Notes under the pieces: generated by a model
The model's input: the letters and a program-made list of their open reading frames with translations, nothing else
Told to the model about the DNA's origin: nothing
The model's database searches: none
Translations under genes and position numbers: made by a program
Shown: positions 11,635 to 25,044 of the stretch, one piece after another
Layout: each line of letters begins with the position of its first letter
Position numbering within the stretch: position 1 is the first letter of the stretch
Assembly: GCF_014645315.1 (NCBI RefSeq)
Contig: NZ_BMLQ01000003.1
Span: 309,804-373,803, forward strand
From: Citricoccus zhacaiensis
GTDB lineage: Bacteria; Actinomycetota; Actinomycetes; Actinomycetales; Micrococcaceae
Length of the DNA stretch: 64,000 nt
Direction of reading: 5' to 3'

Positions 11635-12480
11635 ATGTCCTATGTCAGCCCGCCAGACTTCGTGAAGCACATGGTGGACGCCGGTGAGTCCAAGGTCTTC
11701 ATGTCCACCCGGGACACCCTGATCCGCTCGTTCATGGCCGGTGCCATCCTGGCCCTCGCGGCCGCGTTCGCCATCACCGTCACCGTGCAGACCGGCAACG
11801 CACTCGTGGGTGCATTGCTGTTCCCGGTCGGCTTCATCCTGATCTACCTGCTCGGATTCGACCTGCTCACCGGTGTCTTCACCCTGGTCCCGCTGGCGTG
11901 GATCGACAAGAGGCCCGGCGTGACCATCGGCGGCCTGCTGCGCAACTGGGGCCTGGTCTTCGTCGGCAACTTCGCCGGCGCCTTCCTCGTGGCCATCATG
12001 ATGGTGGTGACCATGACCTACGGTTTCCAGACCCCGCCGAACGAGGTGGCCCAGCAGATCGGCTCCATCGGCGAGGGGAGAACTGTCGGCTACGCCGAAT
12101 TCGGCGCCGGCGGCATGCTGACCCTCTTCATTCGCGGCGTGCTCTGCAACTGGATGGTCTCGACCGGCGTCGTCGCCGCCTTCCTGGCCAAGGACGTCGT
12201 CGGCAAGGCCCTGATCATGTGGATGCCGGTCATGCTCTTCTTCTACATGGGATTCGAGCACTCCATCGTCAATATGTTCCTCTTCCCGGCCGGACTCATG
12301 CTGGGCGGCGAATTCTCCATCATGGACTACCTCGTCTGGAACGAGATCCCGACCGTGCTCGGCAACCTCGTGGGCGGCCTCTCCTTCGTGGGCCTGACGC
12401 TCTACGCCACCCACTACCGCACGGCGGCCAAGCGTCAGCCGAAGCTGCCGACCCTGTCCGACCACGTCGTGAGCCGGTGA
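11635..12480 (+). CDS. Formate/nitrite transporter (FNT) family channel, probable cyanate/nitrite permease
   Basis: The 281-residue protein has six membrane segments and the FNT landmarks. These are an N-terminal SPPDFVKHMVDAGESK, LLGFDLLTGVF after segment 2, and RGVLCNWMV plus MGFEHSIVNMF in the central and C-terminal pore halves. The FEHSIVNM motif carries the conserved central histidine. TGGAG lies about 9 bases before the ATG. The stop is only 2 bp before cynS. FNT channels pass small monovalent anions such as formate, nitrite and hydrosulfide. The tight pairing with cyanase suggests that cyanate, or the ammonium/bicarbonate economy around it, is the physiological cargo. That is inference from context. 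Confidence 0.9.
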   Translation: MSYVSPPDFVKHMVDAGESKVFMSTRDTLIRSFMAGAILALAAAFAITVTVQTGNALVGALLFPVGFILIYLLGFDLLTGVFTLVPLAWIDKRPGVTIGGLLRNWGLVFVGNFAGAFLVAIMMVVTMTYGFQTPPNEVAQQIGSIGEGRTVGYAEFGAGGMLTLFIRGVLCNWMVSTGVVAAFLAKDVVGKALIMWMPVMLFFYMGFEHSIVNMFLFPAGLMLGGEFSIMDYLVWNEIPTVLGNLVGGLSFVGLTLYATHYRTAAKRQPKLPTLSDHVVSR

Positions 12481-12482
12481 CC

Positions 12483-12932
12483 ATGGACCTGATCATGCCC
12501 AAGGCGCACGCTGCCGATCTCGTCAACGCCGCCCGCATCCGTGCTGGGCTCACCTGGGCGGACCTCGCCGGCGCCCTCGGCGCCGCCCCGGTGTGGACCA
12601 CGGCCGCGCTGCTGGGACAGCACCCGATGACCGCGGCCCAGGCCGGCGTCGTGGTCGAGATGCTCGGTCTGGGCGACGACGTGGCCGAGAGCCTGCAGCA
12701 GCAGCCGAACCGGGGCAGCGACCCGGCCGTGATGAACGATCCCACGATCTACCGGCTGATGGAGGCCATGTCGGTCTACGGGCCGGCGCTGAAGGCGTTG
12801 ATCCACGAGGAGTTCGGGGACGGGATCATGAGCGCCATCAATTTCAAGGTCAACCTCGACCGCCGTGCCGATCCGGATGGCGACCGCGTGGTCATCACCA
12901 TGGACGGCAAGTTCCTGGACTACCGCTGGTGA
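12483..12932 (+). CDS. cynS: Cyanate hydratase (cyanase)
   Basis: Cyanase converts cyanate and bicarbonate to ammonia and CO2 in the cytoplasm, as a decamer. The 149-residue length matches the family. The three catalytic residues are present: Arg91 and Glu94 in YRLMEAMSVYG, and Ser117 in GIMSAINF (equivalent to E. coli R96, E99 and S122). The N-terminal half is the expected helical DNA-binding-like domain, and the C-terminus VVITMDGKFL.Y is canonical. The ATG lies 2 bp after the FNT channel stop, so the two are surely cotranscribed. The role is detoxification of cyanate and use of it as a nitrogen source. A carbonic anhydrase often found in cyn operons is absent here. Confidence 0.95.
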   Translation: MDLIMPKAHAADLVNAARIRAGLTWADLAGALGAAPVWTTAALLGQHPMTAAQAGVVVEMLGLGDDVAESLQQQPNRGSDPAVMNDPTIYRLMEAMSVYGPALKALIHEEFGDGIMSAINFKVNLDRRADPDGDRVVITMDGKFLDYRW

Positions 12933-13048: not shown

Positions 13049-13077
13049 TTGGCGGCCGCGTGCTGACTGCCTAGGGT
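13049..13077 (+). promoter_or_regulatory. Promoter of the riboswitch-controlled sulfur operon
   Basis: A -35-like TTGGCG (13049-13054) and a -10-like TAGGGT (13072-13077) are spaced by exactly 17 bases. Transcription would start near 13084, immediately before the first base of the riboswitch P1 stem at 13086. The fit between predicted start and aptamer supports both calls. Confidence 0.6.
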
Positions 13078-13085
13078 CGAAAACA

Positions 13086-13205
13086 GAATCACGAGATCCG
13101 GTGCTAAGCCCTGGCTGGCCGGACGGCAACCCTCTCACCGTAGTGGGGTGCTCCAGGTGATGATTCGGCCTCCGGGGACCACCGCGGGGCAAGTACGGCA
13201 CCACC
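13086..13205 (+). ncRNA. SAM riboswitch of the SAM-IV / SAM-I/IV type
   Basis: The P1 stem pairs GAATCA (13086-13091) with TGATTC (13161-13166). Between the arms are the SAM-family core segments GTGCTAAGCCC, GGCCGGACGGCAACCC and CACCGTAGTGGGGTGCTCC, ending GGTGATGATTC. These match the actinobacterial SAM-IV aptamer pattern I know (GUCAAGCCC, CUGGCCGGCAACCC, GGUGGGGUGCC, GGGUGAUGAC). Downstream, GCGGGGCAAG resembles the extra 3' pseudoknot element of SAM-IV, hence the extended 3' boundary, which is approximate. The riboswitch should lower expression of the following seven genes when S-adenosylmethionine, and so sulfur, is plentiful. Just before the first start codon, GGTGT (13267-13271) can pair with ACACC (13288-13292) around the ribosome-binding GGGGA. 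This hints at translational control, which is inference. Confidence 0.85.
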
Positions 13206-13293
13206 GTGAATGCGTGTCCCGGCCGCAGGGCCCCGATGACGCCGTGTTCCGGGCCAACGCCATTCCGGTGTGCCATGGCTGACGGGGACACCC

Positions 13294-14667
13294 ATGACGG
13301 ACACCACCCACCTCGAACACCGCACCGCGCCTTCCGGCTTGCCCACTTTCGAGGAGCTGCGGGCAGCCATCGGCCCCACCGGGCCGACGGACGCTCAGCT
13401 CACCGCGCACTTCGCCCCCGTCTTCGCGGTCATCGCGGCGGGATCGGCACAGCGCGAGCAGGATCACGAGCTGGCGTTCGCCGCTATTGAACATCTCCGC
13501 GGCGCGGGATTCACGCGGGTGCGGCTCAGCCGCGACCACGGGGGCATCGGGGCGAGCCTGCCGCAACTGGCCGATCTGCTGGTGGACCTCGCCGCCGCGG
13601 ACTCCAACCTGCCTCAGGCGTTGCACGGGCACTTCATGTTCACGGAGCAGCACGAGAACGAGTCCCAGGGCGCGGTTTCCGAGTGGTGGCTGGCCGAAGT
13701 GGCGGCCGGGAAGATCTTCGGCAACGCCCTGGTGGAGTTGCCGCCGTCAGCAGGCCGGCGTCCCGTGCACTGGATCGACGCCGACCCGGACACCGTGCAG
13801 GCGGCTGCCGCCACGGGCACCACGGAGGTGGCCCGCTTGACCGGTGACAAGTTCTACTCCACCGGGGCGATCTTCGCCGATTACCTGCTGGTCTCCGCAG
13901 TCCGGCCCGGGCTCGAGGAGGACGGTCCGATCTTCGCGATCATCGATGCCCGTGATCCCGGGGTGCAGCGCATCGACGACTGGAACGGCTTCGGCCAGCG
14001 GCTCACCGCCTCCGGCACCACCACCCTGGACCACGTCCCCGTGCGGGCCCAGCGGACCCAGGAGTTCAACGTCCCCACGGGCGTGCTGGCCTACACCGTC
14101 CTGTGGATCGTGCTGGCGGCCACCCAGGCCGGGATCGGCGCCACCGCGCTGGCCGAGATCACCGCGTTCGTCCGCGGCCGGCGTCGTACCTACGACCACG
14201 CGACGGCGGAGACGCCGGCGGAGGACCCGCTGGTGCACCAGGTCATCGGTGCCGTGTCCGCCAAGGTGGGCTCGGCCCGGCACATCGTGCGGGGCGCCGC
14301 GGCCGTGGTGGAGGAGTCCTTCCTCCAGGTCCGGGGCCACACCGACCTGGAGGACCCCGTGGTGCTCCAGGCCCACGCCCGGGCCAACATCGCGCTGTCC
14401 GAGGCGACGCTCGTGGTGTCCGATCTGATCCTGGAGGCCACCAACCAGATCTTCGAGTCCGGCGGGGCCTCGGCCACGGATGCCAGCCGGCAGCTGCACC
14501 AGCACTGGCTCAACGCCCGGACGATCGCCAGCCACACCCCGTTGATCTACCGCACCCAGGCCGTGGGCGACTACCGGATCAACGGCGCCATCCCGCCCTT
14601 CCACTCCACGGCCCGCAACTCCGCCGCCGCGGAGGCCGCCACCCCAGCCACCACCGAAGGAGCATGA
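13294..14667 (+). CDS. SfnB/DszC-like flavin-dependent oxidoreductase (acyl-CoA dehydrogenase fold), paralog 1
   Basis: The 457-residue protein has the acyl-CoA dehydrogenase fold of the sulfur-acquisition SfnB family and of the dibenzothiophene monooxygenase DszC. Visible blocks are RLSRDHGGIGASLPQL near the N-terminus, TGDKFYSTGAIFADYLLVSA in the middle, DDWNGFGQRLTASGTT, and a C-terminal HWLNARTIASHTP followed by YR...GDYRINGA. There is no acyl-CoA dehydrogenase catalytic Glu context, as expected for monooxygenase relatives. The start at ATG 13294 has GGGGA upstream; a GTG at 13270 is also in frame. It is the first gene after the SAM riboswitch, and 41 bases of the leader lie inside a possible hairpin. 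It probably oxidises or desulfurizes an organosulfur compound with reduced FMN supplied by a separate reductase. Confidence 0.85.
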   Translation: MTDTTHLEHRTAPSGLPTFEELRAAIGPTGPTDAQLTAHFAPVFAVIAAGSAQREQDHELAFAAIEHLRGAGFTRVRLSRDHGGIGASLPQLADLLVDLAAADSNLPQALHGHFMFTEQHENESQGAVSEWWLAEVAAGKIFGNALVELPPSAGRRPVHWIDADPDTVQAAAATGTTEVARLTGDKFYSTGAIFADYLLVSAVRPGLEEDGPIFAIIDARDPGVQRIDDWNGFGQRLTASGTTTLDHVPVRAQRTQEFNVPTGVLAYTVLWIVLAATQAGIGATALAEITAFVRGRRRTYDHATAETPAEDPLVHQVIGAVSAKVGSARHIVRGAAAVVEESFLQVRGHTDLEDPVVLQAHARANIALSEATLVVSDLILEATNQIFESGGASATDASRQLHQHWLNARTIASHTPLIYRTQAVGDYRINGAIPPFHSTARNSAAAEAATPATTEGA

Positions 14668-15941
14668 TGACCACCACCACCGAGCGCGCCACCGCGCCCT
14701 CCACCGCCGCCTCCACCGGGTCTGAATCGTCCGGCCAGGCCTACCGGACCGTCCGCGAGCGGCTGGCCCCGGTGTTCGCCGCCATCGCGGACAGCGCCGC
14801 CGAACGGGAGGCCGAGCACATCATCGACCGCGGCGCCGTCCGGCGGCTGGCCGCGGCGGGATTCACCTCCCTGCGGGTGCCGGTGGAGTACGGCGGCGCC
14901 GGACTCTCCTTCGCAGAGCAGGCACAGCTGATCGTGGAGCTGGCGGCGGCGGACTCGAACCTCGTCCAGGCACTGCGTGCGCACCTCATCAACCAGGAGA
15001 ACGTGCTGGGGCACCCGGACCCGGTGTTCCGGGACCGGTGGCTGCGCCGCCTCGGGGACGGGGCCGTGGTCGGCAACGCCGTCACGGAGATCAACAACGC
15101 TGTGGGGGAGGGGACCACCACGCTGGTCCGGGACGCCGAAGGCACCTGGCGGCTCAACGGCACGAAGTACTACTCCACCGGGACGCTCTACGCCGACTGG
15201 ATCATCGTGGCGGCCGTGGAGGCCCAGGGTGAGGAGATCGCCGCCACGGTGTCCGTGAATGCCCCCGGGATCACGAGGCTGGACGACTGGGACGGCTTCG
15301 GGCAGCAACTCACCGCCTCCGGCACCACGGTATTCGAGAACACGCCGGTCGAGGCCGAGGAGGTCTACACCGGCGGCCTGGATGACGGCACCCGCGTCGC
15401 CACCGGCCAGGCCAGCTGGCAGTTCCTGCACCTCGCGGCGTTGACCGGCATCGCCGAGGCCATCGTGCGGGACGTCAGTGAGTACGTCCGCGGCCGGCGT
15501 CGTTCCTTCAGTCACGGGACAGCGGAGCTGCCGCGGGATGATGCCCAGGTGCTCCAGGTGGTCGGCGAGCTCTCCTCCGCCGCGTTCGCCGCGCGGGCCG
15601 CCTTCGAGTCCGTGGTCTCCGCGCTGGGCGGCGTCCTTGAGCGGGAGGCCGCCGGTGAGGACCTGCCGGAGGAGGACATCAACGTCCTCTACATCCGCGT
15701 CTACCAGGCCCAGCAGGTCATCGCGAAGAACGTCCTGGCCGCGGCCACGCACCTGTTCGAGGTGGGCGGCGCCTCGGCCCTGAGCCAGTCGAAGCGGCTG
15801 GACCGGCACTGGCGCAACGCCCGCGTGCTGGCCAACCACAACCCCCTGATCTACCGGTCCCGCCTCATCGGGGATTGGGAGGTCAACGCCACCCCGCCGG
15901 CCCGTTCCTACCGCATCGGCTCCGTGCCGAACGCCCAGTGA
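14667..15941 (+). CDS. SfnB/DszC-like flavin-dependent oxidoreductase, paralog 2
   Basis: The 424-residue protein is a diverged tandem paralog of the preceding gene. The same blocks are present: RVPVEYGGAGLSFAEQ, NGTKYYSTGTLYADWIIVAA, DDWDGFGQQLTASGTT, YVRGRRRSF and HWRNARVLANHNPLIYR. Two consecutive ATGs (14664 and 14667) follow GAAGGAG; the second gives the better spacing and overlaps the last base of the upstream stop. The pair may form a heteromer or act on successive steps. DszC/SfnB-type enzymes use reduced flavin and O2 on thioethers, sulfones or sulfinate-like substrates. The exact substrate cannot be told from sequence. Confidence 0.85.
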   Translation: MTTTTERATAPSTAASTGSESSGQAYRTVRERLAPVFAAIADSAAEREAEHIIDRGAVRRLAAAGFTSLRVPVEYGGAGLSFAEQAQLIVELAAADSNLVQALRAHLINQENVLGHPDPVFRDRWLRRLGDGAVVGNAVTEINNAVGEGTTTLVRDAEGTWRLNGTKYYSTGTLYADWIIVAAVEAQGEEIAATVSVNAPGITRLDDWDGFGQQLTASGTTVFENTPVEAEEVYTGGLDDGTRVATGQASWQFLHLAALTGIAEAIVRDVSEYVRGRRRSFSHGTAELPRDDAQVLQVVGELSSAAFAARAAFESVVSALGGVLEREAAGEDLPEEDINVLYIRVYQAQQVIAKNVLAAATHLFEVGGASALSQSKRLDRHWRNARVLANHNPLIYRSRLIGDWEVNATPPARSYRIGSVPNAQ

Positions 15942-15973
15942 ACCCGAACCCCGATCAGCATCCAGGAGACCCC

Positions 15974-17389
15974 ATGAGCACAGCCAACCGCACCCCCTCC
16001 CACACCGCCCCGCGCCCCCTGCGCTTCAACGCGTTCGTCATGAACACCACCAGCCACATCCACCACGGCCAGTGGCGCCGAGAGGATGCCGGCCAGACCG
16101 AGTTCACGGACGTCAACACGTGGATCAACCTCGCGAAGACCCTGGAGGCGGCCAAGTTCGACGCGATGTTCTTCGCGGACGTGGTGGGCCACTATGGCGA
16201 TGCCGACGCGGACTACTCCGTGTACGTCAACGAGGGCCTGCAGATCCCCTCCAACGATCCGACCGTGCTGCTCGGGGCGCTCGCCGTGGTCACCGAGCAC
16301 ATCGGGCTGGCCACCACCTCGAACGTGTTCCAGTCCCACCCGTTCCAGTTCGCCCGCCAGCTCTCCACCCTGGACCATATCTCCGGCGGCCGCATCGCGT
16401 GGAACATCGTCACGGGCACCCAGGACAACGGCTCGCGCAATTTCGGCCTGCCGCGGCTGACCGACCACGCCGAGCGCTACCGCTGGGCGGCGGAGTACAT
16501 CGACGTCACCTACAAGCTGTGGGAGGGTTCCTGGGACGAGGACGCGGTGATCAAGGACCGCGCTGGTTCGCGCTACTCGGTTCCGGAGAAGGTGCACAAG
16601 ATCCACCACGTGGGCGAGCGCTACTCGGTGGAGGGCCCGCACCTGCCCTCCCCGTCCCCGCAGCGCACGCCGGTGCTGTTCCAGGCCGGTTCCTCCGCCT
16701 CCGGCCGTGACTTCGCCGCCCGCAACGCCGAGGCCGTGTTCATCATCGCGACCACCCCGGATGTGGCCCGCCAGCAGATCGAGGACACCCGACGCCGCGC
16801 CGTTGAGGCAGGCCGGGCACCGGAGGACATCACGTTCTACCAGGGGCTCAGCTTCGTCATCGGGGACACCGAGGAGGAGGCTCAGCGGAAGCTGGAGGAG
16901 TACGAGCAGTACGCCTCCCTGGACGGGTACCTGGCCCATGCCGCCCTCGTGGATCCGGACGGCCGGGTCTATCCGCCCGAGACCCCGCTGAAGGACCTGG
17001 AGACGAACACCCAGAAGGGCTTCGCCGAGTGGGTCTCCAAGGCCATCACGGACCGCGAGCCCGTGGTGGCGGACATCGCCTGGCGTAGCCACCGCAACAG
17101 CCGCGTGGTGGGCACCCCGGAGCAGATCGCCGACCAGCTGGAGCAGTGGCAGGCGGCCGGCGTGGACGGCATCAACGTCATCAACTGGGTCATCCCCGGC
17201 TCCTTCGAGGAGTTCGCGGAGAAGGTCCTGCCGGTGCTGCGTGAACGTGGCCTGGCCCAGTCCGAGTACGCTCCGGGCACCCTGCGCCAGAAGCTCTTCG
17301 GCCGCGACCGGCTCCCCGAGACCCACCCGGCCGCCCAGTACCGCGGAGCCTTCGCCCGCCTGGAAGAGACCGTGCCCGCCGGCGCCTGA
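15974..17389 (+). CDS. LLM-class flavin monooxygenase, NtaA/SnaA/DszA/DmoA family
   Basis: The 471-residue protein is a bacterial-luciferase-like (TIM-barrel) monooxygenase. Family landmarks are LRFNAFVMNTTSHIHHGQW at the N-terminus, EAAKFDAMFFADV, QLSTLDHISGGRIAWNIVTG, RYRWAAEYI, PQRTPVLFQAGSSASGR and GTPEQIADQLEQWQAAGVDG. The length and insertions place it with the NtaA/DszA group rather than the shorter SsuD group. CAGGAG lies 5 bases before the ATG. DszA and DmoA cleave C-S bonds of sulfones and dimethyl sulfide with FMNH2. The SAM riboswitch upstream and the paralogs beside it make C-S cleavage the likely role. No flavin reductase is encoded in the operon. Confidence 0.88.
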   Translation: MSTANRTPSHTAPRPLRFNAFVMNTTSHIHHGQWRREDAGQTEFTDVNTWINLAKTLEAAKFDAMFFADVVGHYGDADADYSVYVNEGLQIPSNDPTVLLGALAVVTEHIGLATTSNVFQSHPFQFARQLSTLDHISGGRIAWNIVTGTQDNGSRNFGLPRLTDHAERYRWAAEYIDVTYKLWEGSWDEDAVIKDRAGSRYSVPEKVHKIHHVGERYSVEGPHLPSPSPQRTPVLFQAGSSASGRDFAARNAEAVFIIATTPDVARQQIEDTRRRAVEAGRAPEDITFYQGLSFVIGDTEEEAQRKLEEYEQYASLDGYLAHAALVDPDGRVYPPETPLKDLETNTQKGFAEWVSKAITDREPVVADIAWRSHRNSRVVGTPEQIADQLEQWQAAGVDGINVINWVIPGSFEEFAEKVLPVLRERGLAQSEYAPGTLRQKLFGRDRLPETHPAAQYRGAFARLEETVPAGA

Positions 17390-17440
17390 CCCCCGCGCCT
17401 CCCGGCCACGAGAGCTGCCCAGCGGCCCGAAAGGAACCCC

Positions 17441-19240
17441 ATGAACACCCCACCCTCCCCGAACGCGCCCGAAAACCGACCAGTCTCGGCTTGGCAGACG
17501 GCCACCACCACGGCCAGCAGCAGGGCACGACGCCGGCCGGGCGCCCTCACCGCCGGCATCGCCCTGGCCGTGGGGTCGGCCTTGGTCCTGTCCGCCTGCT
17601 CTTCCGGGACGGCGGGCCCGCAGGAGCAGGCAGCCTTGACCGGCTCCGCCACGGAGCCGGTCCAGGGCGGTGTCCTCGAGTACGGGCACCTCCAGGAGCC
17701 CAACTGCATCTTCGGCGGTTGGATCCAGGAGAACTTCACGGCCCGCCAGGTGCTGGACAACCTGGTCTCGGCCACGGAGGACGGCTCGGTGGTGCCGTGG
17801 ATCGCCACCGACTGGGAGGTCTCCGAGGACCAGTTGGTCTGGACGCTGACGCTGCGGGATGACGTCCACTTCACGGACGGCACGCCGCTGGACGCGGAGG
17901 CCGTGGCCTACAACTTCGACTACTGGATGGACGGCGGCAACGGCACGGCCGCAGCTCATCTGGGCGGGTTCTACGACCACTCCGAGGTGGTGGATGCTGA
18001 CACGGTGGAGATCCACCTCTCCGCCCCGTTCGCCCCGTTCCTGTCCACCCTCTCGCAGTCGTACTTCGGCCTGCAGTCACCGACGGCGCTGCAGACCCGG
18101 ACGGTGGAGGAGAACTGCACCGAACCGATCGGCTCCGGCCCCTTCACGGTCAAGGACTGGAAGCGCGGCGAGTACATCGAGTTCGAGCGCAACGAGGACT
18201 ACGACTGGGCCCCGGAGAACGCACGGCACCAGGGACCGGCCTACCTGGAGGGCATCCGGTGGAACATCGTCCCGGATGGCACCTCGCGCTACGGCTCCCT
18301 GCTGGCCGGAGAGATGGACGCGATCGGTGAGGTCCCTGCCGTCAACATCGCCGAGGCGCGCCAGCGGTATGACTTCACGCAGTACATCACCCCCGGCCGG
18401 CCCGTGGTCATCAACCTGAACACCGAACGCGGCATCTTCACCGACCAGGCCGTCCGCCAGGCGCTGAGCCACGCCACGGACCGCGAGGCGAACATCGAGT
18501 CGGCCTTCCTGGGCACCGTCCCGTTCGAGCCCAGTGGCTACCTCTCCCAGTCCACGCCCGGCTATGACGCGGACGCGGCCCAGCAGTACCCCTTCGACTT
18601 GGAGAAGGCGAACGAGCTGTTGGACGGGGCCGGGTGGACCGGTCGCGCTGAGGACGGTACCCGGATCAAGGACGGGCAGCGGCTGCAGGTGAAGATCGTC
18701 TACGGCCTGAACACCATCGTCACGCCGGACGGCAACACCGCCATCCAGAACTTCCAGGAACAGGCCCGGGCCGCCGGATTCGACATCGAGCTGCGACCAC
18801 TCACCCCCTCCGAGAACTTCTCCGGCGCCTACTCCACTCCGGACAGCTATGACGGCAGCGTCGGGTACTGGACCAGTCCGCACGCCGGGATCCTCAACAT
18901 CAACTACCGGCCCTCCACCGAGGAGGCGCCCAACGGGGCCAACACCACGTTCCTGGACAACGAAGAGGTGTTCACCACCATCCAACAGGCCCTGCAGGCA
19001 CCCACGGACGCGGAGGTCACCGCGACGTTCTCCGAGGCCCAGTATCAGCTCAGCGAGCTGGCCCCCGCGATCGGCCTGTATACGCAGACCAACACCCTGG
19101 CGGTCTCAGACCGGGTCAGCGGCCTGTGGCTCGAGCCCGCCCAGGGTGGGCCGATCTTCCACGACGCCCACTTCACCTCGGAGGAGGCCCGGGACTCATC
19201 CCAGGGCTTCTCCGCAGCGAACGCAGAGAACGAAGGCTGA
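17441..19240 (+). CDS. Peptide/nickel-type (family 5) ABC substrate-binding lipoprotein
   Basis: The 599-residue protein has an unusually long polar N-terminus before its hydrophobic signal core, then the lipobox LSAC (Cys53). The mature region is an SBP_bac_5 (DppA/OppA/NikA-like) protein, showing LVWTLTLRDDVHFTDGTPLDAEAVAYNFDYW, ENCTEPIGSGPFTVKDWKRGE, and AVRQALSHATDRE. AAAGGAA lies 6 bases before the ATG. It is followed 3 bp later by the first permease. In this sulfur-regulated operon the cargo is probably an organosulfur compound or a sulfur-containing peptide/thiol conjugate rather than general peptides. Confidence 0.92.
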   Translation: MNTPPSPNAPENRPVSAWQTATTTASSRARRRPGALTAGIALAVGSALVLSACSSGTAGPQEQAALTGSATEPVQGGVLEYGHLQEPNCIFGGWIQENFTARQVLDNLVSATEDGSVVPWIATDWEVSEDQLVWTLTLRDDVHFTDGTPLDAEAVAYNFDYWMDGGNGTAAAHLGGFYDHSEVVDADTVEIHLSAPFAPFLSTLSQSYFGLQSPTALQTRTVEENCTEPIGSGPFTVKDWKRGEYIEFERNEDYDWAPENARHQGPAYLEGIRWNIVPDGTSRYGSLLAGEMDAIGEVPAVNIAEARQRYDFTQYITPGRPVVINLNTERGIFTDQAVRQALSHATDREANIESAFLGTVPFEPSGYLSQSTPGYDADAAQQYPFDLEKANELLDGAGWTGRAEDGTRIKDGQRLQVKIVYGLNTIVTPDGNTAIQNFQEQARAAGFDIELRPLTPSENFSGAYSTPDSYDGSVGYWTSPHAGILNINYRPSTEEAPNGANTTFLDNEEVFTTIQQALQAPTDAEVTATFSEAQYQLSELAPAIGLYTQTNTLAVSDRVSGLWLEPAQGGPIFHDAHFTSEEARDSSQGFSAANAENEG

Positions 19241-19243
19241 GCC

Positions 19244-20269
19244 ATGTCCGTCACCACCGAAACCCTCACCACGGCACCCGCCCAGCCCTCAAGCCCGGAG
19301 CCCGTCCGGCGCGGGCGCCCGGTCACCTCGACCGCCGCGCTCATCGGGAAGAAGGTCCTCGGCGCGCTGTTCGTCATCTGGGCCGCGGCCTCGATCACCT
19401 TCCTCATCCAGTCCCTGCTGCCTGGGGACCGCGCCACGCTCCTGCTGAACCAGCAGACCGGGCAGGTGCAGGAGCGCTCCGCCGAGGAACTGGCGCCGAT
19501 CAACGAGCAGTTCGGCTTCGACGATCCGCTGCTCGTCCAGTACGTCACCTTCCTGGGTGGCCTGCTGCGCGGGGACCTGGGCATCTCCTACACCCTGTAC
19601 CAGCCGGTCACCACCGTGATCGGGGACCAGATCGTCCCCACCCTGGTCCTGACGTTCACCGCCCTCGCCGTGGCCTGGGCCCTGGCGATCGTGCTCCTGC
19701 TGCTCACGGCCCGCCGCGCGCCCTGGGTGTCCCGGATCTTCTCCGGCCTCGAGTCCGCGGCGGCCGCCCTGCCGCAGTACTGGCTGGGCATCATCCTGCT
19801 CGTGGTGTTCTCCCTGTGGCTGGGGCTCTTCCCCGTGGTCTCGGGCAGCGGCACGGCCGGCCTGGTGCTGCCGGCGCTGACCCTCGGCATCCCGCTGGCC
19901 GGCTTCCTCGCCCAGGTGATGCGCGCCGAGTTCGAGCGGACCATGGATGAACCGTTCGTCCTCACCGCCCGGGCCCGCGGCATGTCCGACGGCGGCGTGC
20001 GGCTGCGCCACGTGCTGCGCCACTCGCTGTTGCCCGGTCTCAGCCTGACCGGCTGGGCGGTGGGAGCCCAGTTCTCCGCCGCCGTGATCGCCGAGAACGT
20101 GTTCGCCCGGCCCGGCCTCGGACGGGTCCTGGTCACCGCAGTCAACGGCCGTGACCTGCCCGTGGTCTGCGGCGTGGTCATGCTCGTGGCCCTCGTCTAT
20201 GTGATCACCAACCTGATCGTGGACACCGCCTACATCCTCGTGGATCCCCGACTGAAGGAGGCAGCATGA
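19244..20269 (+). CDS. ABC transporter permease, DppB/OppB type
   Basis: The 341-residue protein has six membrane segments. The BPD_transp_1 EAA loop is visible as DEPFVLTARARGMSDGGVRLRHVLRHSLLP near the C-terminal third. The large extracytoplasmic loop after the first segment (residues ~60-110) is typical of the B-type subunit. It starts 3 bp after the binding-protein gene and overlaps the next permease by 4 bases (ATGA), so subunits are probably made in balanced amounts. Confidence 0.92.
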   Translation: MSVTTETLTTAPAQPSSPEPVRRGRPVTSTAALIGKKVLGALFVIWAAASITFLIQSLLPGDRATLLLNQQTGQVQERSAEELAPINEQFGFDDPLLVQYVTFLGGLLRGDLGISYTLYQPVTTVIGDQIVPTLVLTFTALAVAWALAIVLLLLTARRAPWVSRIFSGLESAAAALPQYWLGIILLVVFSLWLGLFPVVSGSGTAGLVLPALTLGIPLAGFLAQVMRAEFERTMDEPFVLTARARGMSDGGVRLRHVLRHSLLPGLSLTGWAVGAQFSAAVIAENVFARPGLGRVLVTAVNGRDLPVVCGVVMLVALVYVITNLIVDTAYILVDPRLKEAA

Positions 20270-21177
20270 CCGCCCAGCCCCAGAGCCAGCCTCGAATACC
20301 AGCCGACGCCGGCACCACCGGTGGGGTGCCCGCCGCGCCTCACCCGGCCGGGCCGGTGCAGTCCGCCACCTGGCGACGGGTCCCGGTCACCGTGTGGATC
20401 GCCGGGGTGTTCGCGGGGCTGCTGCTCCTCGCCGCCTTCGCCCCGGGCGTCCTGGCCACCCATGATCCGCGCGCCATCACCTTGGGCAGCCCGCTGGCCG
20501 CGCCCAGCTGGGAGCACTGGTTCGGTACCGACCAGTCGGGCCGGGACCTGTACTCGAGGATCGTGCACGGCACCACTCAATCCCTGCTGATCGGGCTCGG
20601 TTCCGCGGCCGTGGGCGTGGGACTCGCCGTGGTCTTCGGGTCCTGGGCAGCACTGGGCGGACGCTGGGCGGACGCCGTCATCGGCCGGGCGATCGAGGTC
20701 CTCTTCGCCTTCCCCATCCTGCTGCTGGCCATGGTGTTCATCGCGGTCTACGGGCCCTCGGTGCAGACCCTGATCCTCGCGGTCGGGCTGGGGATCGCCC
20801 CCGGCTATGCCCGGATGGTCCGCGCCCAGGTGATGAGCGTCCGGCGGTCCGGCTACGTCCAGGCGGCGCAGGCCCTGGGGCACCACCCCGGACGGGTCCT
20901 GGCGCAGCACATCCTGCCGAACGCCCTGCGGCCCCTGCTGGCGGTCCTGACCCTCGGCATCGGTCAGTCCATCGTCTGGGCCTCCGGCCTGGCGTTCCTC
21001 GGCTTCGGGGTGGCCCCGCCCTCACCCGAGTGGGGTGCCCTCCTGGAAGCCGGCCGCCCCTACATCATCGAGGCCTGGTGGCTGGAGATCATCCCTGGCC
21101 TGGCCGTGCTGGCCACCGCCCTGACCGCCACCGTCCTCGGCAAGTTCGTGGAGTCCACCCTAGAAGGAGAACGCTGA
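20266..21177 (+). CDS. ABC transporter permease, DppC/OppC type
   Basis: The 303-residue protein has a ~45-residue cytoplasmic N-terminus and then six membrane segments. It carries the C-type hallmarks HWFGTDQSGRDLYSRIVHGTTQSLLIG and the EAA loop SGYVQAAQALGHHPGRVLAQHILPNALRP. AAGGAGG precedes the overlapping ATG. It pairs with the DppB-type subunit upstream to form the channel for the organosulfur importer. Confidence 0.92.
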   Translation: MTAQPQSQPRIPADAGTTGGVPAAPHPAGPVQSATWRRVPVTVWIAGVFAGLLLLAAFAPGVLATHDPRAITLGSPLAAPSWEHWFGTDQSGRDLYSRIVHGTTQSLLIGLGSAAVGVGLAVVFGSWAALGGRWADAVIGRAIEVLFAFPILLLAMVFIAVYGPSVQTLILAVGLGIAPGYARMVRAQVMSVRRSGYVQAAQALGHHPGRVLAQHILPNALRPLLAVLTLGIGQSIVWASGLAFLGFGVAPPSPEWGALLEAGRPYIIEAWWLEIIPGLAVLATALTATVLGKFVESTLEGER

Positions 21178-22985
21178 TGACCACCCTGACCGACACCGCC
21201 ACGCCCCTCCTGACGGACCCGGCCCCTGAGGGCGGCGCCGCCGGAGCAGCGTCCCGCCCCCTGGTCGAGGTGGAGAACCTCAACGTCTGGTTCTCGGACG
21301 CCCACGGCCGCCGCAGCCACGTGGTGCATGACGTCTCCGTGCAGATCCACGCCGGCGAGTGCGTGGCGATCATCGGCGAGTCGGGCTCCGGGAAGTCCGT
21401 GACCGCCCGGACCCTCATCGGCCTGACCGGACCCAACTCCCACGTGCGGGCGGACACGGCCACCGCCCTGGGCCGGGACATCCAGACGCTGCGGGACACG
21501 GACTGGCGGTCCATCCGCGGCAAGGACATCGGCTTCATCCTGCAGGACGCCCTCGTCTCCCTGGACCCACTGCGTACCGTGGGAGCGGAGATCGGTGAAT
21601 CGCTGCGCCTGCACGGCGTGCGGGACCGCGCGGAGCGGGCGGCCCGGGTGGAACAGCTGCTCGCGGAGGTCGGCGTCCCCGAGCCGCACCTGGTGGCAGG
21701 CCAGCGCCCGGACCAGCTCTCCGGCGGCCTGCGCCAGCGCGCCCTGATCGCCTCGGCCATCGCCAACCACCCGTCCCTGGTGGTGGCCGACGAACCGACC
21801 ACCGCCCTCGACGTCACCGTCCAGGCCCAGGTCCTGGACCTGCTGGCCCAGCGCAAGGCGGACGGCACCGCGATCCTGCTGATCAGCCATGACTTCTCCG
21901 TGGTGGGACGGCTGGCCGACCGCGTGCTGGTGATGCAGGGTGGCTGGATCGTGGAGTCCGGGACCGCGGCCGAGGTGCTGGAGAACCCGCAGCACCCCTA
22001 CACCCGCCAGCTGCTGGACGCCGTGCCCTCCGGGCACACCAAGGGTGAGTACCTCACCGAGGAGGGCCGGGCTCGGGCCGCAGCGCGCGCGACGACGGCC
22101 GGCACCTCACAGCGCACGGCCCCGGCCGGCGTCGGGAACCCGGCAGAGCCGAAGGACGAGGCGAGCCAGGTGCCCGCGGTGCTGTCCGCGCGCGGACTGA
22201 CCAAGTCCTACCGGGGGCCGGACGGCCGGGACCGCACCGTGGTGCGGGACGTGTCCTTCGACGTGCACGCCGGGCGGACCCTCGGCATCGTGGGGGAGTC
22301 CGGCTCCGGCAAATCCACCACGGCGTCCATGGCCCTGGGCTTCATCGCCCCGGACGCGGGCACCGTCCTGCTGGACGGTGCACCCTGGAGCGAGCTGTCC
22401 CTGGCCGGGCGGAGGTCCCGCCGCCGCGAGGTGACCGTGGTCTATCAGGACCCGCTGAGCTCCTTCGACCCGCGGTGGAGCGGCGAGAGGATCCTCACCG
22501 ACGCGCTCGACGCCGGCACGGCCCCCGGGGTGTTCGCCTCGTCCCGGGCGCGGCGGGCCCACCGGCAGGAGCAGTCCGAGCGGGCGGCGCAGCTGGCCCG
22601 CCTGGTCGGCCTCACCCCGGAGCACCTGGCCAAGCACCCGCTGCGGCTCTCCGGGGGCCAACGGCAGCGGCTCTCGATCGCCCGCGCCCTGGCCCCGGAG
22701 CCGAAGGTCGTGGTGCTGGACGAGGCCGTCTCCGCCCTGGACGTCTCGGTGCAGGCCCAGGTGCTGGACCTGCTCACCGAACTCCAGGAGACCCTCGGGA
22801 CCACCTACCTGTTCATCTCCCACGACCTCGGGGTGATCCACCATATGAGCGACGAGATCCTGGTCATGAAGGACGGGGTGGCCGTGGAGCACGGAGACGC
22901 CGACCGCGTGTTCGAACAGCCGGAACACCACTACACCCAGGCACTGCTGGGCTCCCTGCAGGCGCTCTCGACCACGGTCCGCTGA
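21177..22985 (+). CDS. Fused double ABC ATPase (DppD-DppF type)
   Basis: The 602-residue protein carries two complete nucleotide-binding domains. The first has Walker A GESGSGKS (about residues 66-73) and a slightly divergent signature LSGGLRQR. The second has Walker A GESGSGKS (about 372-379) and signature LSGGQRQR with Walker B VVVLDEAVSALD. Each is followed by the ~70-residue C-terminal extension typical of peptide-importer ATPases (NPQHPYTRQLL and QPEHHYTQALL). A polar linker of about 60 residues joins them. The ATG shares its A with the upstream TGA, and AAGGAG is upstream. It powers the importer formed with the preceding genes and is the last gene of the operon. The convergent aldo/keto reductase ends 6 bp away. 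Confidence 0.93.
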   Translation: MTTLTDTATPLLTDPAPEGGAAGAASRPLVEVENLNVWFSDAHGRRSHVVHDVSVQIHAGECVAIIGESGSGKSVTARTLIGLTGPNSHVRADTATALGRDIQTLRDTDWRSIRGKDIGFILQDALVSLDPLRTVGAEIGESLRLHGVRDRAERAARVEQLLAEVGVPEPHLVAGQRPDQLSGGLRQRALIASAIANHPSLVVADEPTTALDVTVQAQVLDLLAQRKADGTAILLISHDFSVVGRLADRVLVMQGGWIVESGTAAEVLENPQHPYTRQLLDAVPSGHTKGEYLTEEGRARAAARATTAGTSQRTAPAGVGNPAEPKDEASQVPAVLSARGLTKSYRGPDGRDRTVVRDVSFDVHAGRTLGIVGESGSGKSTTASMALGFIAPDAGTVLLDGAPWSELSLAGRRSRRREVTVVYQDPLSSFDPRWSGERILTDALDAGTAPGVFASSRARRAHRQEQSERAAQLARLVGLTPEHLAKHPLRLSGGQRQRLSIARALAPEPKVVVLDEAVSALDVSVQAQVLDLLTELQETLGTTYLFISHDLGVIHHMSDEILVMKDGVAVEHGDADRVFEQPEHHYTQALLGSLQALSTTVR

Positions 22986-22990
22986 GGCGC

Positions 22991-24073
22991 TCAGTCGATC
23001 CGGGCGGAGACGTTCCAGATGTCGATGGTGGACACCTCACCGGGCTGCTTGCCGGTGATCGCATCGATGCACGCCAGCTCCTCGTCCGTGAACGCCGTGT
23101 TGGCCAGGGCGCCCAGGTTCTCGTCCAGCTGGCCCGTCGAGGAGGCGCCCAGCAGCACCGAGGTCACGCCGCCTGGCCGCAGCAGCCACGAGATCGCCAG
23201 CTGGGCCAGGGACTGCCCGCGCTCGCCGGCCAGCTCGTTCAGCGCCCGTGCCGTCGCGAGGTTCTCCTCCGTCAGGTGACCACTGAGGGAGGTGCGGCCG
23301 CCGGAGGGGACGGCGCCGTCGTCGTGCAGGTACTTGTCCGTCAGCAGGCCCTGGGCCAGCGGCGTGAAGGCGATGGACCCCATGCCCTGTTCCTGCAGGG
23401 TCTGCAGGAGGCCGTCCTCCACCCAGCGGTTCAGCAGGGAGTAGGCCGGCTGGTGGATGACCAGCGGGGTGCCCAGCTCCCGGGCGATGCGCTGGGCCTC
23501 GACCGTGCGCTCGGGCGAGTAGGAGGACAGGCCCACGTAGAGCGCCTTGCCCTGGGTGACCAGGGTGTGCAGGGCACCGATGGTCTCCTCCAGGGGCGTG
23601 TCCGCATCCGCGCGGTGGGAGTAGAACAGGTCCACATAGTCCAGGCCCATCCGCTGCAGGGAGGCATTCGCGGCGGCCAGGATGTACTTGCGGGAGCCCA
23701 GGTTGCCGTACGGCCCCGGCCACATGTTCCAGCCCGCCTTCGAGGAGATGATCAGCTCGTCCCGGTAGCGGCCCAGGTCTTTGGCCAGGACCCGGCCGAA
23801 GTTCTCCTCGGCGGATCCGGCGGGCGGCCCGTAGTTGTTGGCCAGGTCGAAGTGGGTGATGCCGCGGTCGAAGGCGTGGGTCAGGATCTCCCGCTGGGTG
23901 GAGAAGGGACGGTTGTCCCCGAAGTTCCACCACAGTCCCAGGCTGATCGGCGGCAGCGCGAGGCCCGTGGCGCCGACCCGGCGGTAGCCGGTGGACTCAT
24001 AGCGGTCCGCCGCCGCCACGTAGGGAGCGTGGTGTTCGGGCGTGGGCACGGGGCTGATCTCACCGGTGTTCAT
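22991..24073 (-). CDS. Aldo/keto reductase, YghZ/MgrA (L-glyceraldehyde-3-phosphate reductase-like) group
   Basis: The 360-residue NADPH-dependent reductase has the AKR barrel landmarks. These are an Asp/Tyr pair region (FDLANNYGPPAGSAEENFG, with the catalytic Tyr), a Lys in IISSKAGWNMWPGPYG, and a His in DLFYSHRADADTP. The WPGPYG stretch is characteristic of the YghZ group, which reduces methylglyoxal and glyceraldehyde 3-phosphate. GGAGG lies 6 bases before the ATG at 24073. It is monocistronic and divergent from the SRPBCC gene at 24145. The role is probably aldehyde detoxification. Confidence 0.9.
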   Translation of the reverse strand: MNTGEISPVPTPEHHAPYVAAADRYESTGYRRVGATGLALPPISLGLWWNFGDNRPFSTQREILTHAFDRGITHFDLANNYGPPAGSAEENFGRVLAKDLGRYRDELIISSKAGWNMWPGPYGNLGSRKYILAAANASLQRMGLDYVDLFYSHRADADTPLEETIGALHTLVTQGKALYVGLSSYSPERTVEAQRIARELGTPLVIHQPAYSLLNRWVEDGLLQTLQEQGMGSIAFTPLAQGLLTDKYLHDDGAVPSGGRTSLSGHLTEENLATARALNELAGERGQSLAQLAISWLLRPGGVTSVLLGASSTGQLDENLGALANTAFTDEELACIDAITGKQPGEVSTIDIWNVSARID

Positions 24074-24144
24074 GCAGTTCCTCCAAGACGTTGGTCGGTC
24101 CTCTACCGTGGAGCACTGTACGCCCCGGATGGCAGGCTGGGGAC

Positions 24145-25044
24145 ATGAGCGAAACACAGGGCCATCCGGCCGTCATCGGCGAACCCTCTGCCCGGTTCGA
24201 GCGGGACGGTCCGGGCTGCTGGGCCATCGTGGAGGTGGCCGTCCCCGGAACCGCCGAGGAGGTCTGGGATTCGGTTGCCACCGGCCCCGGCTACCGCCGC
24301 TGGTTCGTGGAGGCGGAGCTGGAGCCCCGCGTTGGCGGCGCCCTGGTGACCCACCATGGCGACTTCGGCGACTCCGAGGGCACCATCACCGCCTGGGATC
24401 CGCCCCACCGCTATGCGTACGTGGAACCCGACTGGATGGGCGAGGGCGCCCCGGTCCCCGACTGGACCACCGAGATCACCCTGGAACCTGTGCCCGACGA
24501 CGGCCCGCCGGCCACCCTCGTCCGGCTCACCAGCGGCGTGGCCACCGAGGCGGACACCTGGGGCGAGGACATCGGGGGCACACTGCCCGGCTGGCGGTCC
24601 GCGCTGCGGCTGCTCGCCGAGTACCACGCCCACTTCGCCGGGCGGGAGACCGCCCAGGCCTTGGTGATGCGCGAGGTCCCGGCGGGGCATCGGCTGACGG
24701 TGCTGCTGGGATTGGAGGGGGCCGTCGTCGGGCAGCAGGCCACCGCCCGCGCCGAGACCGATGGGCGGCACCTCGCGGTGACCGGCACGGTGATCGAAGC
24801 GAGCAGCGGCCCGGGCGGCACGGGGCCGACCCAGCAGGACTCGGTGGTGCTGCGCGTGACCGACGGGACCGGCGGGACCACACCGGGCGTCTACGAGTTC
24901 GGCACCATACAGTACGGCGAGACCAGGATGTCCGTGGTGCGTGGCTACCTGCACGTCCCGGCCGGTGCGGACCCAGGGGCCGCCGAGGCGGCCCGGACCG
25001 TCGAGCGCGACTGGGCCGGCGTCCTCGATGTGCTCCTGGCGTGA
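24145..25044 (+). CDS. SRPBCC (AHSA1/START-like) domain protein
   Basis: The 299-residue protein has an N-terminal SRPBCC ligand-binding fold of the AHSA1 type (about residues 25-165). It shows VPGTAEEVWDSVATGPGYRRWFVEAELEPRVGG and a central tryptophan-rich strand, ending with GWRSALRLLAEYHAHFAG. A second β-rich half of about 130 residues appears to be a divergent repeat or companion domain. Proteins of this family bind hydrophobic ligands or act as chaperone-like adaptors, and many are paired with ArsR regulators, which is not the case here. GGGGA lies near the ATG. The function is unknown. Confidence 0.8.
   Translation: MSETQGHPAVIGEPSARFERDGPGCWAIVEVAVPGTAEEVWDSVATGPGYRRWFVEAELEPRVGGALVTHHGDFGDSEGTITAWDPPHRYAYVEPDWMGEGAPVPDWTTEITLEPVPDDGPPATLVRLTSGVATEADTWGEDIGGTLPGWRSALRLLAEYHAHFAGRETAQALVMREVPAGHRLTVLLGLEGAVVGQQATARAETDGRHLAVTGTVIEASSGPGGTGPTQQDSVVLRVTDGTGGTTPGVYEFGTIQYGETRMSVVRGYLHVPAGADPGAAEAARTVERDWAGVLDVLLA

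Follow-up and report, generated by a model that had tools for sequence, protein, structure and literature searches.

Within a 64,000-nt stretch of the Citricoccus zhacaiensis genome (NZ_BMLQ01000003.1, positions 309,804–373,803, forward strand; hereafter the window), an S-adenosylmethionine (SAM) riboswitch of the SAM-IV class precedes seven co-directional genes encoding flavin-dependent monooxygenases and an importer. Judged from sequence, this unit is probably a SAM-repressed operon for the scavenging of organic sulfur and one arm of a SAM-IV regulon. The initial annotation of this DNA had proposed a SAM riboswitch controlling organosulfur uptake and desulfurization; this observation is confirmed, and is stronger than first stated. 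The riboswitch is of a known class, its target class is unreported in the literature that we found, and the regulon is family-wide. The proposal that organic sulfur is the target gains support from enzyme types that recur behind SAM-IV far above what uniform placement would give, and from further SAM-IV copies in the same genome ahead of metY-metX and a flavin reductase.

Scanning the window with cmscan at the Rfam gathering threshold, which reports the best match alone within each Rfam clan, returned two tRNAs and one other match, to SAM-IV (RF00634), on the plus strand at 13087–13201. The SAM-IV match scores 91.8 bits (cut-off 38; E 2.8e-15) and spans model positions 1–116 of 116. The covariance model thus bears out the predicted aptamer. 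It had been described as sharing core segments of SAM-IV and SAM-I/IV; the SAM-IV part stands over its whole length, and the mixed aptamer was dropped because the single match accounts for the entire element. Alignment A3 and covariance model R1 comprise 44 of the 55 distinct aptamers with CCAGG or CCAGA in the pseudoknot. In this alignment 92.9% of cells are paired and 22 of 34 pairs show two-sided changes; of 500 shuffles, none was equally high on four of the five measures and one was on the fifth. The last helix (columns 114–141) is weakly kept, with 73% of cells paired. For the promoter proposed upstream the evidence is divided: TA(G/C)GGT lies directly 5' of the aptamer in all seven aligned leaders, drawn from seven of the eight genus genomes, but no candidate, TTGGCG/TAGGGT included, passed a 9-of-12 consensus scan.

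The seven genes (Table 1) fill 13294–22985 without internal stops. Gene 1 starts 92 bases past the aptamer end, and the intergenic distances are −4, 32, 51, 3, −4 and −1 bases with the start of gene 2 placed at 14664, so the earlier description of one tightly spaced unit holds. Family scans uphold, at superfamily level, the earlier naming of two SfnB/DszC-like enzymes, one DszA/NtaA-like monooxygenase and a peptide-type ATP-binding cassette (ABC) importer. The first two proteins, here sfnB1 and sfnB2, are 37% identical (tblastn) and belong to the group D monooxygenases of acyl-CoA-dehydrogenase fold, with PF08028 above its cut-off in both and near-full-length alignment to MsuC/DszC. The best solved chain for sfnB2 is 6u76, a methanesulfinate monooxygenase, to which residues 29–414 align; residues 60–412 align to DszC, with a C-terminal HWxNxR...H.P..Y stretch in common that is present in sfnB1 too. 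The best solved chains for sfnB1 are 8cda (a probable monooxygenase), 5xb8 (thermophilic DszC-type) and 6u76.

Table 1. Features of the riboswitch-led operon in the window
Feature	Position	Strand	Basis
Candidate promoter: TTGGCG (13049–13054), 17-base spacer, TAGGGT (13072–13077)	13049..13077	+	Read from sequence
SAM-IV riboswitch aptamer	13087..13201	+	RF00634, 91.8 bits, full length; alignment covariation
Pseudoknot 5' half, CCTGG	13110..13114	+	Complementary to 13153–13157; pairing kept with altered letters in other target classes
Pseudoknot 3' half, CCAGG	13153..13157	+	Complementary to 13110–13114
Aptamer-to-gene-1 leader	13202..13293	+	92 bases; ribosome-site-like GGGGA, start 10 bases 5' of ATG
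sfnB1, DszC/MsuC-like group D flavin monooxygenase, 457 amino acids	13294..14667	+	PF08028 40.7 bits vs 22.7; TIGR04022 223.3 bits
sfnB2, DszC/MsuC-like group D flavin monooxygenase, 425 amino acids	14664..15941	+	PF08028 52.7 bits; TIGR04022 244.5 bits
llm, NtaA/DmoA-family FMN-dependent group C monooxygenase, 471 amino acids	15974..17389	+	TIGR03860 490.9 bits vs 279.7
Family-5 substrate-binding protein, 599 amino acids	17441..19240	+	PF00496 268 bits vs 32.4; lipobox-like LSAC near N-terminus (read from sequence)
Opp/Nik-type permease 1	19244..20269	+	PF00528, PF19300
Opp/Nik-type permease 2	20266..21177	+	PF00528
Fused double ATPase	21177..22985	+	PF00005 (ABC_tran) and PF08352 (oligo_HPY), two stretches each

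The third protein is a luciferase-like monooxygenase (LLM) whose solved relatives are hexachlorobenzene dehalogenase (445 bits), alkane monooxygenase (389), dimethylsulfide monooxygenase (362), YtnJ/MoxC (253), DszA (223) and EDTA monooxygenase (131). It falls below the equivalog cut-offs for SfnG (TIGR04021, 103 versus 382.95 bits) and alkanesulfonate monooxygenase (TIGR03565, 76.5 versus 518.2 bits). The remaining four genes make up a complete peptide/nickel-type ABC importer by family scans, with a substrate-binding protein (SBP; SBP_bac_5), two BPD_transp_1 permeases and an oligo_HPY ATPase. The SBP lies under the cut-off for all 10 NCBIfam models that it matched, so that these assign it no substrate; among them are TIGR04028 (KPN_01854; 229.5 bits, cut-off 468.5) and the glutathione-binding GsiB (123.3, cut-off 594); its best solved matches are nickel-binding proteins.

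Three SAM-IV copies were found in the 3.69-Mb genome of the window (Micrococcaceae; 23 contigs), ahead of the window operon, of metY-metX on contig C1 and of a PF01613 flavin reductase on contig C7, one of two PF01613 genes found there. No flavin reductase is present among the seven operon genes; as sfn/msu oxygenases use a separate reductase and the operon encodes none, the SAM-IV-led reductase would be their natural partner. Each of the eight genomes sampled from the genus has three or four SAM-IV copies, and in all eight SAM-IV leads into SfnB/LLM oxygenase genes. By target, the 28 sites divide into 12 with SfnB/LLM genes, 8 with metY, 7 with flavin reductase and 1 with a major facilitator superfamily (MFS) transporter. 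The complete operon under a single SAM-IV is found in the window genome, G001 and G006; in G002 and G004 an extra SAM-IV separates sfnB2 from llm, in G003 and G005 the riboswitch is followed by sfnB1-sfnB2 alone, and G007 has the order SAM-IV-llm-sfnB1-sfnB2. Relatives of the SBP with at least 80% identity occur in five of the eight genomes, G003 and G007 having 36% at best and G005 none (E 1e-40). In two Enteractinococcus genomes SAM-IV (76.8 and 76.5 bits) again lies just 5' of sfnB1 (73–75% identical).

The link from SAM-IV to oxygenase genes recurs in other families of the order. R1, run on 119 genomes of the order, matched in 72 at E 1e-6. G165 and G206, from another family, have SAM-IV-SBP-permease-permease-ATPase-LLM without the SfnB pair, with identities to the window proteins of 70–72% for the LLM, 47–51% for the SBP and 56–61% for the permeases; in G227 the order behind SAM-IV is SBP-permeases-ATPase-LLM-SfnB. 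Since G165 and G206 have importer and LLM alone while G003 and G005 have the SfnB pair without the importer, importer and LLM form a module separable from the SfnB pair. The window operon therefore looks like two cassettes behind one switch, each of which appears to retain its own SAM-IV in G002 and G004. The same arrangements bear on an earlier suggestion, that an oligopeptide-type importer implies a large substrate. That suggestion is not supported: family-5 SBPs also take nickel chelates and EDTA, according to the part of the Chelativorans report drawn on here (PMC7312458), and in three of the eight genus genomes the riboswitch and the enzymes are present without a close SBP orthologue. We accordingly dropped the importer as proof of substrate size.

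Across the family, SAM-IV was found in all 120 genomes sampled. We listed all 111 sites in 31 other genera, one genome each, assigning gene classes, as in the genus and out-of-family sets, by tblastn against proteins from the same loci, with class names taken from family scans of representatives only. The first genes are metY/metX at 33 sites (31 genomes), flavin reductase at 15 (15 genomes), SufS-like at 9, DUF1737-rhodanese-MetB at 8, LLM at 5, VIT1 at 5, SfnB, MFS then LLM, MetQ and OsmC at 4 each, PIN-NRAMP at 3, SBP5-ABC-LLM-SfnB at 2, and MTHFR and SBP3 at 1 each; 13 sites have no class. SfnB/LLM operons thus lie behind 15 of the 111 sites, in 11 of the 31 genomes, and a twelfth genome (G012) has an LLM gene behind a reductase-first site. 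An oxygenase-type or reductase-type SAM-IV site is present in 20 of the 31 genera, and in G010 an MFS-LLM pair and a neighbouring flavin reductase are each under their own SAM-IV. NtaA-type LLM genes lie on the same strand within 9 kb downstream of SAM-IV in 14 of 70 cases (one of the 70 below cut-off and one a fragment) versus 0.36 expected, and SfnB-like genes in 9 of 51 versus 0.25, under an estimate in which genes are placed uniformly, genome sizes are rounded and the members of an operon each count separately.

These arrangements suggest how the operon may work. Plentiful SAM would bind the aptamer and turn the operon off, and a fall in SAM would allow its expression. The SBP, two permeases and double ATPase would then bring in an organosulfur compound. 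Its sulfur would be oxygenated, at the expense of reduced flavin, by one or both of the DszC/MsuC-like enzymes, and the NtaA/DmoA-type enzyme would cleave a C–S bond with release of sulfite or an equivalent. The SAM-IV-led reductase on contig C7 would supply the reduced flavin; the sulfite would be reduced, and the sulfur captured as homocysteine via MetY, itself behind SAM-IV. Because import, oxidation and assimilation are each SAM-IV-led, all three would answer to one end product. The importer substrate is most likely that of the LLM, since in another family a related importer is encoded with an LLM behind SAM-IV where the SfnB pair is missing.

Several results weigh against this reading. 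No intrinsic terminator was found in the 13202–13293 leader and its folding gave no clear ribosome-site switch, results that favour neither transcriptional nor translational control. A stem read by eye in the leader that could mask the ribosome site, GTGTCCC/GGGACAC, was rejected, being broken in the close relative L034 and not clearly preferred in folding. Both SfnB-like proteins miss the SfnB equivalog TIGR04022 (223.3 and 244.5 bits, cut-off 430.9) and, by far, the DszC equivalog NF043015 (86.6 and 116.8 bits, cut-off 850); the names SfnB and DszC were dropped for them on this account. The two top solved LLM matches carry non-sulfur substrate names, hexachlorobenzene and alkanes. On contig C2 of the window genome there are three full-length NtaA-type genes and no SAM-IV was found, and the 42% relative of sfnB1 in Micrococcus lylae lies in a 12-kb locus with no SAM-IV at the gathering threshold. 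Eleven of the 31 genera have neither an oxygenase- nor a reductase-type SAM-IV site, and, as 56 of the 70 LLM and 42 of the 51 SfnB-like genes do not lie within 9 kb downstream of SAM-IV, its control is one of several arrangements.

We considered what else the operon might do. YtnJ/MoxC takes part in the salvage of S-substituted cysteine, and its place among the solved LLM relatives (253 bits), together with the peptide-type importer, would fit a narrower form of organosulfur scavenging, in which sulfur peptides, glutathione conjugates or S-substituted cysteines are imported by an oligopeptide-type system, S-oxidized and cleaved. We regard this form as unlikely: peptidase and deacetylase genes are absent from the seven, the SBP score for GsiB is far from its cut-off (123 versus 594 bits), and three of the eight genus genomes with the SfnB pair have no close SBP orthologue. 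It is quite improbable that a metal chelate or aminopolycarboxylate is the substrate of importer and LLM, in which case SAM-IV control would reflect not sulfur supply but a connection of SAM with metallophores. The Chelativorans operon, as given in the available part of its description, does pair a family-5-type SBP with an FMNH2-dependent EDTA monooxygenase (PMC7312458), the best solved SBP matches bind nickel, and NRAMP, MntR and VIT1 genes follow certain SAM-IV copies in the family; yet the LLM is much nearer dimethylsulfide monooxygenase (362 bits) than EDTA monooxygenase (131), two DszC/MsuC-like genes fit S-oxygenation, and SAM-IV before metY-metX, MetQNI and flavin reductase indicates sulfur. 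It is very unlikely that the enzymes serve carbon use or detoxification by oxidizing a compound without sulfur, such as an alkane or a halogenated aromatic, despite the two top solved LLM matches, as SAM control of carbon use makes little sense and LLM, SfnB-like and flavin reductase genes recur behind SAM-IV in many genera.

Within the family, the letters of the SAM-IV pseudoknot track the target class, with exceptions, and the exceptions are more numerous outside it; this is new here. The pseudoknot was scored by a fixed text pattern, found at 129 of 139 sites (28 from the genus and 111 from the family). All 47 oxygenase-related leaders (21 SfnB/LLM-first, 22 flavin-reductase-first and 4 MFS-LLM) have CCTGG/CCAGG (42) or TCTGG/CCAGA (5), letters of a type also found in the four OsmC, three of four MetQ, the MTHFR, the SBP3 and the genus MFS leaders. 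For metY/metX and SufS-like leaders the 3' half is CCGGG in 47 of 50, with a matching 5' half found in 49 of 50. TCGGA occurs at 20 of the 139 sites, namely VIT1 (5), PIN-NRAMP (3), SBP5-LLM-SfnB operons (2) and 10 of the 13 sites with no class. Seven of the 10 sites at which the pattern is missing are in the DUF1737-rhodanese-MetB class (7 of the 8 in that class). These paired letter changes support the pseudoknot itself and show that the aptamers form target-linked groups.

Of 30 loci, each the best R1 hit of its genome, we used the 21 outside the window's own family, a set biased towards the CCAGG/CCAGA group on which R1 was trained. Here CCAGG leaders precede SBP5, LLM or MetQ genes in 8 of 8 assigned cases and CCGGG leaders precede metY or SufS-like genes in 9 of 10, with 3 of the 21 lacking a class. 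As an absolute rule the correspondence was rejected. In the family, two SBP5-LLM-SfnB operons have TCGGA, and 3 of the 50 metY/metX and SufS-like leaders have other letters; among 20 out-of-family regions chosen from 4 genomes, six are misfits, with CCGGG before SfnB-like genes (L236, L240), ABC ATPases (L228, L242) and weakly MFS-like genes (L229, L241), and the motif was not found in L232. L224 is a further misfit.

One possible, if rather unlikely, explanation is that SAM-IV in these actinobacteria has diverged into three or more paralogous sensors, each marked by its pseudoknot and each with its own task. Their SAM thresholds would differ, so that synthesis and scavenging start in order. 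CCCGG/CCGGG would serve metY-metX and SufS-like operons; CCTGG/CCAGG or TCTGG/CCAGA would serve organosulfur oxygenases with their flavin reductase, as well as MetQNI and further importers; and TCCGA/TCGGA, which would serve the metal transporters VIT1 and NRAMP and uncharacterized small proteins, may by now have a different ligand or function. The TCCGA/TCGGA subgroup includes VIT1 loci (L161, L171, L174, L181, L188), PIN/NRAMP loci (L180, L182, L183) and loci with no class (L165, L166, L177, L178, L184, L187, L189, L192, L194, L195), and also precedes several short reading frames, a part of which begin 11–28 bases past the aptamer.

Previous accounts of SAM-IV, each available to us in part, place it ahead of an O-acetylhomoserine sulfhydrylase in M. 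avium (MAV_4315; PMC3774663) and of cg1478 in C. glutamicum (PMC3890552), and give its target in Actinomycetales as metXY (PMC4239095). The actinobacterial groups in a survey with 13 SAM-IV sites are Corynebacteriaceae and Mycobacteriaceae (PMC3766115), and two more papers name no targets in the parts consulted (PMC6890682, PMC2864571). Our literature search, which covered few subscription papers, found no report of SAM-IV linked to oxygenase or desulfurization genes. The window switch resembles the M. avium case in aptamer family, expected ligand and 5' leader position on sulfur genes. It differs in its target, which is organosulfur uptake and oxidative cleavage rather than homocysteine synthesis, and in its pseudoknot, which is CCTGG/CCAGG where most metY/metX leaders of the family have CCCGG/CCGGG.

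Enzymatically, the operon has parallels in systems of other organisms. The sfn system of Pseudomonas is controlled by SfnR-type proteins. In the part consulted, the dimethylsulfone-to-sulfite pathway combines group D S-oxygenation, group C C–S cleavage and an FMN reductase (PMC8234197), and the sfn/msu enzymes (SfnG, MsuC and MsuD with the FMN reductases MsuE or SfnF; same source) share with the window operon, as proposed here, group D S–O formation, group C C–S cleavage and a separate FMN reductase; the operon differs in an LLM that is neither an SfnG nor an alkanesulfonate monooxygenase equivalog, in cis-RNA control and in its peptide-type importer. The dszABC-dszD system of Rhodococcus and Gordonia is likewise composed of DszC-like and DszA-superfamily enzymes with a separate flavin reductase and expected repression by good sulfur sources, but the part consulted ascribes its control to proteins, the repressor WhiB1 and the activator DszGR (PMC9426449), and the window operon has no DszB-type gene among the seven and misses the DszC cut-off by far. 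The Chelativorans EDTA operon (EppABCD, EmoA, EmoB) also encodes a NikA/DppA/OppA-like SBP and importer with an FMNH2-dependent monooxygenase; its enzymes act on chelator C–N bonds, no SfnB-type gene is named in the part drawn on (PMC7312458), and the window LLM is distant (131 bits). A parallel at the level of the regulon is found in Candidatus Pelagibacter ubique, where several SAM riboswitches answer sulfur limitation and have osmC and metY targets, as in some Micrococcaceae; there, in the available part of the account, the classes are SAM-II and SAM-V and sulfur acquisition is reported as constitutive (PMC5069961), whereas the window importer is itself behind the switch.

If the proposed regulon holds, SAM-IV would be the common sensor for an entire sulfur economy in Micrococcaceae and families close to it, one that takes in two-component oxygenases and, under a switch of its own, the flavin reductase that they need. 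It would also provide an RNA-level answer, for this group, to the shut-off of organosulfur cleavage under good sulfur supply, a matter of importance for biodesulfurization that has been discussed, in the part consulted, in terms of protein regulators (PMC9426449). Many poorly annotated NtaA-type and SfnB-like genes behind SAM-IV would gain a testable functional label, sulfur, and the link of pseudoknot to target provides naturally occurring material for the question of whether riboswitch paralogues respond at different ligand concentrations.

Further observations concern the SAM-IV sites themselves. A fourth SAM-IV in G001 and G006 (L038, L040) leads into a second operon, with an SfnB-like gene, a further frame, SBP, permeases, ATPase and an NtaA-type LLM, its SBP being TIGR04028-like (393 bits, cut-off 468.5). 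G227, G201 and G214, from another family, each give 9–10 matches to R1, among them pairs that point away from each other at a distance of about 100 bases (G227, contig C11, 49524–49839; G214, contig C23, 40395–40729). SAM-IV leads into a SufS-like cysteine desulfurase in 9 of the 31 genera, with strong matches (L089, L093, L095, L101, L102, L105, L108, L110, L111); a methyltransferase and an MntR/DtxR-like regulator are each present at 8 of these nine loci and an NRAMP Mn transporter at 6, an unexplained link between sulfur and manganese. In 8 genera it leads into DUF1737, rhodanese and MetB/MetY-like genes (L127, L139, L143, L162, L164, L168, L179, L190). An S4-domain gene (PF01479) lies, for no obvious reason, 3' of the SAM-IV-led flavin reductase at 11 of 22 sites (L005, L039, L041, L042, L043, L044, L045, L149, L156, L160, L175).

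On plasmids, tblastn with sfnB1 hit 610 records and with a relative nearer to DszC 650. None of these matches reached 60% identity, Rhizobium and Sinorhizobium came first, and no dsz record was among the matches listed. An RF02912 match (AAC/AAD leader or attI site; L046, 10722–10797, minus strand) lies on a G007 contig that also bears the SAM-IV leading into an MFS gene. The window operon itself ends 5 bases from a convergent aldo/keto reductase frame (22991–24157, minus strand). Just 5' of the riboswitch is a cyanase gene (11898–12932, plus strand), whose frame has about 200 codons 5' of the cyanase domain, so that its start is probably internal.

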